From: an uncultured Eubacteriales bacterium
GTDB taxonomy: Bacteria; Bacillota; Clostridia; Oscillospirales; QAKW01
Assembly (NCBI GenBank): GCA_934378025.1
Contig: CAKRPM010000016.1
Coordinates: 1-11,496 of the forward strand
Length of the DNA: 11,496 nucleotides
Reading direction: 5' to 3'
Part shown: positions 7,369 to 11,496 of the stretch, one piece after another
Position numbering within the stretch: the stretch's first letter is position 1
Layout: each line of letters opens with the position of its first letter
The notes under the pieces: model-generated
Told to the model about the DNA's origin: nothing
Database searches by the model: none
Seen by the model: the letters and a program-made list of their open reading frames with translations, nothing else
Program-made: the position numbers and the translations under genes

Positions 7369-7439
7369 GTGGGATTTTCGGTGGGATTTCTAATTTTTGA
7401 AAGGTATTAAAAATATACCTTGTGGGACTGCGAGTGGGA
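7369..7439 (+). repeat. Two pairs of GTGGGA repeats around an inverted repeat (candidate attachment-site arm sequences)
   Basis: GTGGGA occurs at 7369, 7381, 7422 and 7434. Within each pair the spacing is exactly 12 bp, and three of the four copies read GTGGGATTT. Between the pairs is a 7-bp inverted repeat, AAGGTAT (7401-7407) with ATACCTT (7415-7421), separated by 7 nt. Short tandem repeats about one helical turn apart, next to a small inverted repeat, are typical of arm and core sites bound by tyrosine recombinases. The position fits, between the end of a core gene and an accessory cassette. No integrase gene is in the window, so this reading is an inference. Confidence 0.45.
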
Positions 7440-7456
7440 TTTTTGCCAAAATATGC

Positions 7457-7488
7457 CCTGAAAAACAGTGCGCGGTTGCATTTTCAGG
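7457..7488 (+). repeat. Inverted repeat over the -35 region (possible operator)
   Basis: CCTGAAAA (7457-7464) and TTTTCAGG (7481-7488) form a perfect 8-bp inverted repeat with a 16-nt centre. The right half begins at the last base of the -35 box, so a bound dimer would block the promoter. Restriction-modification genes are often controlled by their own methyltransferase or a small controller protein. No controller gene is seen here, so the binding partner is unknown. Confidence 0.35.
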
Positions 7489-7504
7489 CGAAATATGGTA
7501 AAAT
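7476..7504 (+). promoter_or_regulatory. Extended -10 promoter of the methyltransferase cassette
   Basis: TGGTAAAAT at 7496-7504 is an extended -10 element (TGn followed by TAAAAT, five of six). A weak -35 box, TTGCAT, lies at 7476-7481 with 17-nt spacing. The transcript would start near 7511, giving a leader of about 25 nt before the ATG at 7536. An 8-bp inverted repeat covers the -35 box. Confidence 0.6.
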
Positions 7505-7522
7505 GAATAAGAATATATCCGC

Positions 7523-7530
7523 AAAGGAGA
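7523..7530 (+). promoter_or_regulatory. Ribosome binding site that sets the methyltransferase start
   Basis: AAAGGAGA lies 5 nt before the ATG at 7536. The frame stays open upstream to a GTG at 7422, but that stretch covers the promoter and the GTGGGA repeats, so 7536 is the start. Confidence 0.85.
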
Positions 7531-7535
7531 TTTTT

Positions 7536-8738
7536 ATGGCAAGAGAAAACGCGCGGTCAAATCTTGGTGAAGCAACCAAAGGCAAAAATGACGAATTTTA
7601 TACGTTGTATGAAGATATACAAAAAGAGGTTAACGCCTACCTTGAATATAACCCTGACGTGTTCAGGGGTAAAACTGTGCTTCTGCCTTGCGACGATCCC
7701 GAATGGTCGAATTTCACAAGGTTTTTTGCACAGAATTTTGAAAACTTTGGACTAAAAAAGCTAATCAGCACAAGTTTTGCCCACGAAAGCAAAAACTTCA
7801 AAGGCGCGTATCAGCTTTCATTATTTGAGGAAGAAGCTCCCCAATTTGACGAAAGCAAAACAAAAACTCACGGCAAAATTTTCACCCTAACGAGAGATAG
7901 AAACCATTCAGGATTTATCGATATTGACGACCTTGAATGGCAGTATTTAGAGGGCGACGGAGACTTTAGAAGCGACGAGGTTAAGGCTTTGCGTGATGAA
8001 GCGGATTTTGTAATTACAAACCCACCTTTTTCACTCTTTCGTGAATTTTTGGCTTGGATTTTAGAAGCCAACAAGCAATTTTTGTTAATCGGAAACATTA
8101 ACTGCATTACATACAAAGAGGTGTTTCCCTTAATCAAAAACAACGTTGCGTGGCTTGGTAACGGTATGGGACGTTGGATTTCAGGTTTCATAGTTCCCGA
8201 AGCTTATGATTTATACGGAAGCGAGGCTCGTATTGACGAGAATGGCAACCGCATTGTTGCAACAAATAATTGTTTGTGGCTTACAAACATTGAACACGGT
8301 AGACGTCATCAACCATTACAGCTAATGAGTATGGCTGACAACTTGAAATTTAGCAAACATAAAGAAATAAAAGAAAACGGTTACCCAAAATATGACAATT
8401 ACAACGCCATTGAAATTCCCTTTACTGACGCTATTCCTAATGATTACGATGGCGAAATGGGTGTGCCGATCACATTTTTAGACAAATATAATCCCGAACA
8501 GTTTGAAATTGTTGGTCTTGGCAATTCGCGAGAAAATTTTACGCCGACAAAAGATTATATAAATCCATACAAAATTACTAAACAGGGCAAAGCTGTCAAC
8601 GGCGGTGCAATAAACTGTGTTCTAACATTGGCGACAAAAGAAAAGCCAGAGGGAAAGGTTTATTATATTGCGGATAATAGCGATTACCTCATACCGCCGT
8701 ATGCAAGAGTTTTAATCAAAAAGAGGGTGCAGGAATGA
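7536..8738 (+). CDS. EcoRI-family adenine-specific DNA methyltransferase
   Basis: The protein is predicted to transfer a methyl group from SAM to the N6 of adenine in a short DNA site. Its 400 residues resemble M.EcoRI along most of the length: an N-terminal [12 protein letters not shown] block (17-28), a [10 protein letters not shown] block (51-60), GDGDFRSDE (140-148), the catalytic NPPF motif (162-165) in [17 protein letters not shown] (216-222), NCLWLTN (245-251), [10 protein letters not shown] and [18 protein letters not shown].EcoRI is about 326 residues. The extra length here includes roughly residues 328-386, between the NPEQFE block and the last YARVLIKK, and may alter DNA recognition. 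Resemblance to M.EcoRI suggests a GAATTC-like target, but this is not shown. The stop overlaps the next gene by 4 nt (ATGA), so the two are translated together. No EcoRI-type endonuclease gene is present. Confidence 0.93.
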
Positions 8739-9898
8739 TTACCACACTAAAAACAGACATTACGGTCGCCGATATTTGCAAAGGTTTTGTATATAACGAA
8801 TTTGAGGGAAAGGGACTTTTTGGACTTTCAGGCAAATTGACAATACAGCCCGAATATCAGCGAAATTATATTTACGCCGACGGCAAACGCGACGTTGCAG
8901 TTATTGATTCAATCTTGAAAGGCTACCCTTTGGGACTGATCTATTTTACCAAAGTCGCAGAGGACAAATATGAGGTGCTTGACGGTCAACAGCGTATAAC
9001 GAGCTTTGGGCGTTATGTTACAGGCAAGTTTGCAATCAAAGACGATAACGACATACCGCGCTATTTTGTGGGTCTGCCAACCGACCTGCAGGACAAGATT
9101 ATGCAGACAAAACTGACAATCTATATCTGCGAGGGAACGGAAAGCGAAATTAAGGAATGGTTTAAGACCATAAATATCGCAGGTGTGCCTCTTAACGAAC
9201 AAGAGCTATCAAACGCGATCCATTCAGGACCGTTTGTAACAAAGGCAAAAGAGGAGTTTTCAAACAGCCAAAACGCCAATATCCAAAAGTGGAGTGCCTA
9301 TGTTTCGGGTAACGTTATCCGTCAGGACTATTTGAGGACTGCGCTTGAATGGGTGAGCAAGGGCAACATTGACGACTATATGAGCCGACACCGTTACGAC
9401 GATAATATCACCGAACTCAAGGCATATTTTACAAGTGTTATTGATTGGGTATCAAGCGTGTTTATCGACGTCGAAAGTGAAATGAGAGGGTTGCCTTGGG
9501 GCGAATTTTACGAGCGTTATCACCATAACGCCTATGCACCCGACGAGGTATCACGAAAGCTACGCGAACTATACGCCGACTTTTACGTTAAGGACAAAAA
9601 GGGCGTTTATGAATATATCCTCGGCGGTTGCACCGATAACAAGCTCTTAAATATCCGCGTATTTGACGAGCCGACCAAAAAAACGGTTTACACTCAACAG
9701 ACCAACAAGGCAAAGGCTGAAAATATTTCAAACTGCCCTTTGTGTGCTATGGGTAACGATAACAATAAAAACCGTATTTGGAAAATAACCGAAATGGACG
9801 CCGATCACGTAACCGCGTGGAGCAAGGGCGGTGCTACCGATATAAGCAACTGCCAAATGCTCTGCAAAACCCACAACCGAGCCAAAGGCAACAAGTAA
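8735..9898 (+). CDS. DUF262 (ParB/GmrS-like) protein with C-terminal HNH nuclease domain
   Basis: Predicted 387-residue nuclease. The N-terminal DUF262 domain (about residues 8-160) has the family marks PEYQRNY (39-45), [13 protein letters not shown] (59-71) and [10 protein letters not shown] (82-91). DUF262 proteins such as GmrS and SspE use this DGQQR fold to bind or split nucleotides and gate DNA cutting. A helical middle section follows, then an HNH domain (about 332-387). It has Cys334-x-x-Cys337, [12 protein letters not shown] with the likely general base His358, Asn372, and Cys377/His380 completing a zinc site, ending HNRAKGNK. All key residues are present. The ATG overlaps the methyltransferase stop by 4 nt and a terminator follows directly, so the two genes form a closed cassette. 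It is probably the nuclease half of a restriction-modification or defence unit. Whether it cuts unmodified or modified DNA cannot be told from sequence. Confidence 0.88.
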
Positions 9899-9911
9899 AA
9901 AAATAGAAATT

Positions 9912-9960
9912 AAATGCAAGGCAAAAATCACCGTAACCGGTGATTTGCCTTGCATTTTTT
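9912..9960 (+). terminator. Intrinsic terminator closing the methyltransferase/nuclease cassette
   Basis: A long stem pairs AAATGCAAGGCAAA plus TCACCG (with a two-A bulge between) to CGGTGA plus TTTGCCTTGCATTT, giving 20 bp around a TAAC loop, followed by a T-run to 9960. It lies 13 nt after the nuclease stop codon. Its length and strength suggest that transcription of the following non-coding region does not come from this cassette. Confidence 0.93.
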
Positions 9961-9989
9961 AATCTTCTATATTAAATATGCTTCACAGC

Positions 9990-10128
9990 TTAGCCGTAGC
10001 GGTGCTAAGAATTTGCAATGAAATTATCAATAGTTAAATTCAACACTTTAGGGGTTCCTAAAGAAAATTGCACTTTTAAGGTTTAGTTTTATTGCAACTC
10101 TTAGCAACCGCAAACAGCCTACGGCTAA
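9990..10128 (+). repeat. 139-nt imperfect long hairpin (structured RNA domain or MITE-like element)
   Basis: The two ends pair over a long distance. TTAGCCGTAG (9990-9999) pairs with CTACGGCTAA (10119-10128). CGGTGCTAAG (10000-10009) pairs with CTTAGCAACCG (10100-10110) with one bulged base. TTGCAAT (10013-10019) pairs with ATTGCAA (10091-10097). Inside is a separate perfect 7-bp hairpin, CTTTAGG-GGTT-CCTAAAG (10046-10063). It could be the 5' domain of the large RNA that follows, or a small palindromic insertion. No start or stop signals for a gene are seen. The copy of TTAGCCGT at 10815-10822 can compete for the same right arm. Confidence 0.6.
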
Positions 10129-10592
10129 ACAAATAAATATTGGGAGTTTAACGCTGTCTCTTGAAAACGGCGTGGTTTCGTCAGCCGTTACACTAAAATG
10201 ACGGGGCAAATATGGGTAGTTTCGCTTATACCCTCCAAATTCGGTTGTTTAATATGGCTGTCCTAAGTGTGTGAAGAAAGTGCAAAAGCACACGTAAAAC
10301 GTGAAATGCACGATAGGAGACGAAAAAGGCTTCAGCCTAGGACTGTTGGTGATCGTCCACCGCAGTTCGCGATCTTTTGTGTAATGCAATCAAACGGCGT
10401 AAGCAAGTGTGTAGTGAGAAAAATAAAAATTGGTGGCACCCACCTTTAAGGTAAGAAAGTGGTGTTATCTTTTGGATAGCTAGGCATTATTAGTTTGAAC
10501 AGCATATGTGAAGATTAGTGGTGAGACTACGGCATATACGCAAGCAACACAAATGCGGGATATGTAGATGGGCGAACATACGCCGTGCAAAC

Positions 10593-10795
10593 GGTGGGCA
10601 TTGAGGGAAGACCAATGTAAAAAGTTCGCGTGTTCTGTGCAAACAGACACAATTCAAGCGAATGTCCTAACCATGTGAAAAATGGTTTGATGGGGCGACG
10701 GGTGCGACACCTTTTAACCTATGGGCAGAATTTCACCTTATTTGCAAGGTGGAATTCTGCCCATTCGTATCCAAAGCTCAAGGTGGTGGGCATTG
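10593..10795 (+). repeat. 11-bp direct repeat within the non-coding RNA region
   Basis: GGTGGGCATTG occurs at 10593-10603 and again at 10785-10795. The first copy overlaps the 3' arm of a GCAA-capped hairpin. The second lies between two copies of the GGCAGAATT(T/C)CAC motif. It may reflect internal duplication or two sites for one partner. Confidence 0.5.
10721..10764 (+). repeat. 19-bp hairpin containing a GAATTC site
   Basis: ATGGGCAGAATTTCACCTT (10721-10739) pairs with the arm at 10746-10764 with a single G-U and a 6-nt ATTTGC loop. It is the most stable hairpin in the region apart from the terminators, but it has no T-run, so it is not itself a terminator. The right arm contains GAATTC (10752-10757). 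A third copy of the arm, GGCAGAATTCCAC at 10799-10811, is a perfect 13-nt match to the complement of the right arm and could displace the left arm. Confidence 0.8.
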
Positions 10796-10857
10796 TACGG
10801 CAGAATTCCACATATTAGCCGTTGCTATGTTACAGCAGGGGCAGAACATATAAAATC

Positions 10858-10890
10858 AAAGGACTTACCAAGCACGGTAAGTCCTTTTTT
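10858..10890 (+). terminator. Intrinsic terminator at the end of the non-coding RNA
   Basis: AAAGGACTTACC (10858-10869) pairs perfectly over 12 bp with GGTAAGTCCTTT (10876-10887) around a 6-nt loop, and T continues to 10890. It ends + strand transcription 5 nt before the stop codon of the convergent - strand gene. Read from the other strand it also gives a hairpin with a weaker T-rich tail, so it may serve both transcripts. Its presence on the + strand argues that the gene-free region before it is transcribed. Confidence 0.93.
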
Positions 10891-10895
10891 GTTGC

Positions 10896-11399
10896 CTATT
10901 CAATTTCAAAATCAAAAAATTGTTCCTCATAATCGATATATGGTTCTGCGCCTTGTGTTTGCATTTCTGCAATTTCTCGGTCGCGGTCTCTAATCTGCGC
11001 CTCTAACAACATTTTTTCCATTTTTAGTTGTTTGATTTGTGCCTCTGCCTCAACGCATCTCTTGTATAGTTCGGTTTGCGAGGTTTCGCGCTTAAGCTGT
11101 GCGCCGAGTGTTTGCAATTTTTCATAATTTTGTTTTACCCTTGCAGGACAGCTAACAGCTTCAACCAAGTTGTTAAGCACGGTTTCGTCAATAGTTACCT
11201 CTGCAAACGGCTCTTTTACGCCGTTTACCCTTTTATAGCGCACCTTACGGTGCAGAATTTTCGGTGTAAGGTCTTTTGAAAATGCCTCGCGCATAGTGTC
11301 CTCAATGCTAACCTCTGCTTTTACAGTTTCAAGCCTTGCTTTCAGACTTTCAATTTCTTCGTTTAGGTCGATTACCTGACCTATATCTAACTCTTGCAT
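10896..11399 (-). CDS. Coiled-coil protein of unknown function
   Basis: I do not recognise the family. The 167-residue product is highly charged and almost entirely helical. Residues 1-35 (ELDIGQVIDLNEEIESLKARLETV) and about 100-155 (AEAQIKQLKMEKMLLEAQIRDRDREIAEM) have coiled-coil heptads. Between them is a segment (TPKILHRKVRYKRVNGVKEPFAEVTIDETVL) that reads as a small beta-containing region. The tail is acidic and aromatic (EEQFFDFEIE). No signal peptide or membrane segment is present. The start at 11399 is chosen for AGAGAGGT 6 nt upstream. A start 6 codons earlier (11417) overlaps the stop of the upstream gene by 4 nt (ATGA) but has no ribosome site. The gene is downstream of, and probably co-transcribed with, the partial gene at the window edge. 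Its context suggests an accessory-element protein. A mobilisation or phage role is possible but not shown. Confidence 0.72.
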   Translation of the reverse strand: MQELDIGQVIDLNEEIESLKARLETVKAEVSIEDTMREAFSKDLTPKILHRKVRYKRVNGVKEPFAEVTIDETVLNNLVEAVSCPARVKQNYEKLQTLGAQLKRETSQTELYKRCVEAEAQIKQLKMEKMLLEAQIRDRDREIAEMQTQGAEPYIDYEEQFFDFEIE

Positions 11400-11405
11400 A
11401 TAAAT

Positions 11406-11413
11406 ACCTCTCT
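11406..11413 (-). promoter_or_regulatory. Ribosome binding site of the coiled-coil gene
   Basis: On the - strand AGAGAGGT sits 6 nt before the ATG at 11399 and supports that start over the earlier ATG at 11417. Confidence 0.6.
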
Positions 11414-11496
11414 TCATCGGTTGCGGTCAGTATGTTCAATTTCCTGCCGTTCCCTAAATTTTTGTTTTACAAAATCGCAAAATTTTTGCCAAATCC
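11414..11496 (-). CDS. C-terminal end of an unknown protein (partial)
   Basis: Reading the - strand from the window edge, one frame stays open for 26 codons (rich in K, R, E and Q, ending EHTDRNR) and stops at TGA (11416-11414). The stop overlaps a possible ATG of the coiled-coil gene (ATGA), the usual layout of neighbouring operon genes. The other two - strand frames meet stops within this stretch. Too little is visible to name it. It is short enough that chance cannot be excluded. Confidence 0.4.
   Translation of the reverse strand, partial: IWQKFCDFVKQKFRERQEIEHTDRNR

Follow-up and report, generated by a model that had tools for sequence, protein, structure and literature searches.

The window, by which we mean the whole stretch of 11,496 nt that was analysed, is one whole Clostridia contig and carries topA, trmFO, radical SAM and rubrerythrin genes, all of chromosomal type, upstream of the region studied here; plsX, acpP and rnc are named as present too, going by position and translation. 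A type II restriction-modification pair (7422-9898) stands directly before a gene-free stretch (9899-10895), which is followed by a convergent gene (10896-11417) and, at 11496, by the end of the contig (Table 1). In the nearest host relative found (G094), topA is 68% identical and six of these genes have matches inside an 11-kb span. The window holds no tRNA gene, and no Rep or relaxase gene was seen among the genes read in it. Repeated GTGGGATTT-type motifs occur at 7369-7442, just past the rubrerythrin gene, and possibly mark the left boundary of an accessory segment. The RNA region described below is read as part of an accessory segment, probably a mobile one, of a Clostridia genome.

The product of the convergent gene had no match in Pfam, NCBIfam or PADLOC. 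Among metagenome proteins it has 129 homologues, up to 90% identical, with the source name 'Clostridia bacterium'; the members look mosaic. The family was found in 0 of 95 and 0 of 394 order-level genomes, and the two weak matches among 391 class-level genomes were rejected as resembling unrelated coiled coils.

Table 1. Features of the restriction-modification pair, the gene-free stretch and the convergent gene
Feature	Position	Strand	Remarks
EcoRI-type methyltransferase	7422-8738		PADLOC model MTase_II
GmrSD_N/HNH protein	8735-9898		PADLOC model REase_II
Likely terminator of the restriction gene: hairpin with T run	9912-9957	+	14-nt perfect arms
Promoter-like TTGCCT-17-TATATT	9945-9973	+	Transcript start would be ~9980
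Long imperfect hairpin	9990-10128	+	-50.4 kcal/mol, z -7.2; none of 200 shuffles equally stable
RNA body, no detectable relative	10129-10571	+	Alone folds no better than shuffles
Three-way junction, GEBRO-homologous	10572-10629	+	Rfam RF02988 positions 259-338; GEBRO-only model R1
Hairpin right after the junction, second GCAA loop	10630-10652	+	Same placement in GEBRO
19-bp hairpin GGGCAGA...TCTGCCC	10721-10764	+	
Third copy of hairpin arm, alternative partner	10799-10811	+	Perfectly complementary to 10749-10761
Intrinsic terminator	10858-10889	+	Terminator-like on - strand too
Gene, no Pfam, NCBIfam or PADLOC match	10896-11417	-	Convergent with RNA region

The first-pass annotation had reported a region without a credible gene, ending at a 12-bp intrinsic terminator, and both statements are borne out. 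Over 9899-10895 the longest stop-free run in any of the six frames is 66 codons. Three + strand ORFs of at least 60 aa occur (10267-10449, 10630-10818 and 10721-10993); the protein tests took in the first and the last, neither of which had a Pfam match or a homologue among ~5.8 billion proteins. The terminator stem and loop (10858-10887) have 12 pairs and 6 nt, with a T run on the + strand, and the element, being terminator-like on the - strand too, may serve the convergent gene as well. At the other end, the terminator-like hairpin at 9912-9957 likely separates the restriction gene from the RNA; it is absent from the list of terminator sites, for which the loop limit was 8 nt. The promoter-like site overlaps this upstream terminator and is a weak signal, three such sites being found against 2.0 expected in shuffles.

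No Rfam family was matched at its own cut-off, but a scan of 9960-10900 with permissive filters returned GEBRO ('GC-enriched, between replication origins'; RF02988) at 10572-10650 with 26.5 bits and E 2.6e-5, computed over all 4227 families; the next-best family had E 2.2. The match falls far under the RF02988 gathering score of 284.7 bits, and the GEBROs of four plasmids (pUA140, pLM7, pSt0 and pST64987) score 289.6-347.9 bits. It was not listed in a scan of the whole window (E up to 5) or in one of 10250-10900, which we provisionally attribute to filter and envelope effects. A model of the 3′ domain, R1, built from the four Streptococcus plasmid GEBROs alone and run across all window positions, matched 10572-10652 at 26.3 bits (E 2e-5), with a runner-up of 9.5.

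The matched junction is made up of a closing helix, a GCAA-capped hairpin, a hairpin with an AGGG...AGAC loop and an AAAAA joining strand. Two hairpins with GCAA loops had been picked out earlier from the letters; both are present, and both fall inside 10572-10652. The alignment fitted to the structure has five rows, three of them distinct, and in essence sets the window against the Streptococcus plasmids; in it, 98.5% of 68 cells are paired, and in 16 of 23 pairs both letters differ. With the partners slid by 1-3 columns as a control, at most 41% paired and at most four pairs were two-sided, and none of 500 shuffles reached any of the pairing measures. All 22 testable pairs of the junction are kept together with the loop letters, and the loops and joining strand (GNRA, AGGG...AGAC, A-rich) are kept while the helices change. 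Within the modelled alignment these pair changes argue strongly for a shared structure, as the record of one divergence rather than of tree-wide covariation. Taken alone, 10572-10652 folds as predicted (z -4.9), and its outer helix has a probability of 0.89 within the fold of 9980-10890.

As background, R1 was run with stricter filters on 41 Clostridia-class genomes (~96 Mb) and gave seven matches at E up to 1, the best at 22.9 bits; four of these were inspected, of which two break several pairs and two omit most of the junction. By sequence alone the junction alignment is unremarkable, being reached by 23 to 183 of 500 shuffles, so the support for it comes from the structure-aware models. These models show 10572-10652 to be a homologous module, predicted to share an ancestor with the 3′ domain of GEBRO RNA.

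A model of the GEBRO 5′ core (R3: internal-loop hairpin, pseudoknot-loop hairpin and AGGU/ACCU helix) gave over 9900-10900 a best + strand match of 6.1 bits (E 0.16), which is not significant; a - strand match of 15.1 bits corresponds to the perfect 19-bp hairpin. Resemblances within the 5′ half (~10199-10241), seen by eye, were also rejected, since between 29 and 208 of 500 shuffles equalled the local alignment and R3 was not significant. For gapped alignment of the whole region to three plasmids, 2, 9 and 8 of 200 shuffles did equally well. When 10653-10860 was compared with the plasmid flanks, 0 to 23 of 500 shuffles did as well across eight plasmid/scoring combinations; this downstream similarity comes chiefly from the GGGCAGA...TCTGCCC hairpin and its neighbouring letters, and pSt0 and pUA140 have a hairpin similar to 10721-10764 on the downstream side of their GEBRO. 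On this suggestive evidence, weak GEBRO similarity may continue as far as the GGGCAGA hairpin; the remainder of the RNA would be novel or too far diverged to be recognized. The arms of the hairpin belong to a set of three related ones, GGCAGAATTTCAC (10724-10736), GTGGAATTCTGCC (10749-10761) and GGCAGAATTCCAC (10799-10811), which permit two alternative, mutually exclusive hairpins ahead of the terminator.

The fold of 10110-10895 is more stable than 20 of 20 shuffles (z -4.3), and so is that of its reverse complement (z -5.5), so folding energy does not choose the strand. Tiles of 400 nt gave z -5.5 (9601-10000), -3.1 (10001-10400) and -6.2 (10401-10800), and the excess stability is uneven: it is strong in 9990-10128, 10572-10652 and 10721-10764, while 10121-10520 (z -0.8) and 10129-10570 (z -0.5) fold ordinarily. 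The test is insensitive, as two real GEBRO RNAs used as a control did not go beyond z -1.7 and -0.1; folding energy by itself can therefore neither establish nor rule out an RNA of this kind.

A long-range pairing of 10121-10128 with 10815-10822 had been proposed to close the whole fold. The letters are present, but at chance level: at a spacing of 300 nt or more, 10110-10895 contains a single exact complementary 8-mer pair, where shuffles average 2.1 and 235 of 300 have at least one. The segment 10119-10128 has a better local partner in 9990-9999, to which it is perfectly complementary over 10 nt, and the feature more likely starts near 9980 than at 10121. The hairpin at 9990-10128 would form the 5′ domain of this RNA or else be a structure at the DNA level. 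An imperfect direct repeat (24 nt, 75%) has one copy at each end of the RNA region (9984-10007 and 10809-10832).

Further homologues were sought at several levels. No match to 9960-10895 was found by blastn in phages or plasmids, nor any to the DNA of 9900-11450 in 12 genomes of G094's family; in 391 class-level genomes, 9985-10895 gave nothing beyond short matches (20-49 nt) in 16 genomes, which were put down to chance. A model of GEBRO plus the window sequence (R2) found nothing in 394 genomes of G094's order (E up to 0.02, stricter filters) or in 40 relatives (E up to 0.05). In viral contigs, protein or translated queries gave no relative other than 23 restriction-gene loci that lacked the RNA module. 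Stretches in viral contigs that fit the junction pattern were likewise judged to be chance: 17 loci by eye (11 of them also with R1), at least 120 stretches (106 new loci by R2, best 14.4 bits), and two more patterns with 0 and 29 loci, none of the 29 matching R2. GEBRO itself was found in six plasmid records of the collection searched, all from Streptococcus, and in none of the phage collection. The RNA is rare within the collections searched. No description of GEBRO RNA turned up in the papers searched. In the pUA140 group of S. mutans RCR plasmids, the structured high-G+C stretch that holds GEBRO is bordered by replication origins (PMC3547324).

The neighbouring 'modification cassette' of the first-pass annotation is a type II restriction-modification pair. 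Relatives of the nuclease (61-80% identity) occur in 23 viral contigs, 22 of which also have the methyltransferase, and the RNA module was not found in these 23 loci; since the pair is present there without the module, it is probably cargo unrelated to the RNA. Restriction-modification genes do lie near a GEBRO-type RNA in both settings, the window and the S. thermophilus GEBRO plasmids pSt0 and pST64987, and we treat this proximity as coincidence because the window's pair stands in 22 of the 23 viral loci without the module. The annotation of the two plasmids lists a Bsp6I-type restriction gene together with a cytosine methyltransferase; pSt0, pST64987, pUA140 and pLM7 share an annotated T4SS DNA-binding-domain protein.

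We read 9980-10890 as a free-standing structured non-coding RNA gene of ~0.9 kb whose 3′ module is of GEBRO type (probability about 0.6); our best call is a larger, divergent GEBRO-related RNA under the formal membership cut-off. The large structured RNA suggested earlier is thus retained as the best reading, mainly on the strength of a GEBRO-homologous module with two-sided helix changes, but without the families then named or the closing helix.

The main rival, which we consider unlikely, is that the region works as DNA. It would be an origin of replication or transfer (single-strand origin, nick region) belonging to a rolling-circle element, integrated or former; the hairpins would be read on single-stranded DNA, and there would be no functional RNA. 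The hairpin at 9990-10128 precedes the GEBRO-like module much as a hairpin-rich single-strand origin lies beside the S. mutans GEBRO, and its stem has TAGCGG, one letter off the TAGCGT that is named for those plasmids (PMC3547324); that both strands fold better than shuffles fits as well. However, the pT181-type nick sequence CTAATAGC is absent from the region, and its one-mismatch sites in the window number two (8674 and 11152) against 6.1 expected, both outside the region. The genes read in the window include no Rep or relaxase, and loops and a joining strand that persist while helices change fit an RNA.

We give little credence to a structured RNA unrelated to GEBRO, its junction alike by chance or convergence. 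The score far under gathering, the match of only ~80 nt and its absence from scans of other stretches would agree with this, but E 2.6e-5 over 4227 families, the independent R1 model and a background that peaks at 22.9 bits over ~96 Mb speak for kinship. Slimmer still is the prospect of a non-functional intergenic remnant, a decayed accessory element with leftover hairpins: the ordinary folding energy over 10129-10570 and the want of a close homologue in the collections searched are what decay would leave, whereas 22 of 22 testable junction pairs and the loop letters, kept as they are, would be unlikely under it, and the terminator is intact. Membership of GOLLD, ROOL, OLE or HEARO, or descent from a group II intron by decay, for which only size and the many hairpins speak, has next to no chance of being right, as Rfam lists none of them for 9960-10900 at E up to 10, the scans of the window and of the RNA region brought up no group II intron model, domain V included, and the window lacks tRNA genes.

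For most large bacterial RNAs, little is known of what they do. For the RNA proposed here, transcription would run from ~9980 to the terminator at 10887. It would act in trans, which is made likelier because the terminator before it and the convergent gene after it leave no leader position or cis target. The RNA could be a scaffold in which a rigid three-way junction presents two GNRA loops for docking, with itself, another copy of the RNA or a protein. That the scaffold serves the upkeep of the carrier element is the weakest step and doubtful; it is suggested by the kinship with GEBRO and by the origins that flank the structured region in the pUA140 group (PMC3547324). Tentatively, one may picture a new class of giant RNA of ~0.9 kb around a GEBRO-type junction, itself transferred between Streptococcus plasmids and gut-type Clostridia mobile DNA: a portable element-maintenance module that perhaps works by RNA-RNA assembly through two GNRA-capped arms. 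If the main reading is true, a larger, divergent relative from Clostridia would show which part of GEBRO evolution has kept (the 3′ junction, loops and helices) and would offer a second, distant system for testing transcription, partners and structure.

Like GOLLD and ROOL, the RNA would be large, free-standing, structured and associated with mobile DNA (PMC12286853). It differs from them in that neither sequence nor structure matched at E up to 10, and in its setting: they occur in phages and prophages, often near tRNA genes, whereas the window has 0 tRNAs and chromosomal-type genes upstream. OLE RNA is likewise a large structured bacterial RNA, but gave no match. Rolling-circle single-strand origins share the long imperfect hairpin beside a GEBRO-type stretch and differ in that no Rep gene or pT181-type nick site was seen here. 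From GEBRO the region differs in size (350 model positions against ~0.9 kb), in a 5′ core that is not detectable in the window, and in its carrier, a Clostridia contig beside ordinary chromosomal genes as opposed to small Streptococcus plasmids (six records). As to a GEBRO-style setting between a single-strand and a double-strand origin, a long hairpin lies upstream (9990-10128), the region has no nick site and the contig stops at 11496. Measured against GEBRO membership, the score is below the gathering cut-off and the 5′ core is not recovered, but the 3′ junction and hairpin (positions 259-338) are. What the two have in common is the three-way junction with its GNRA-capped hairpin, AGGG...AGAC loop and A-rich joining strand, the adjoining hairpin and, perhaps, the GGGCAGA hairpin farther downstream.
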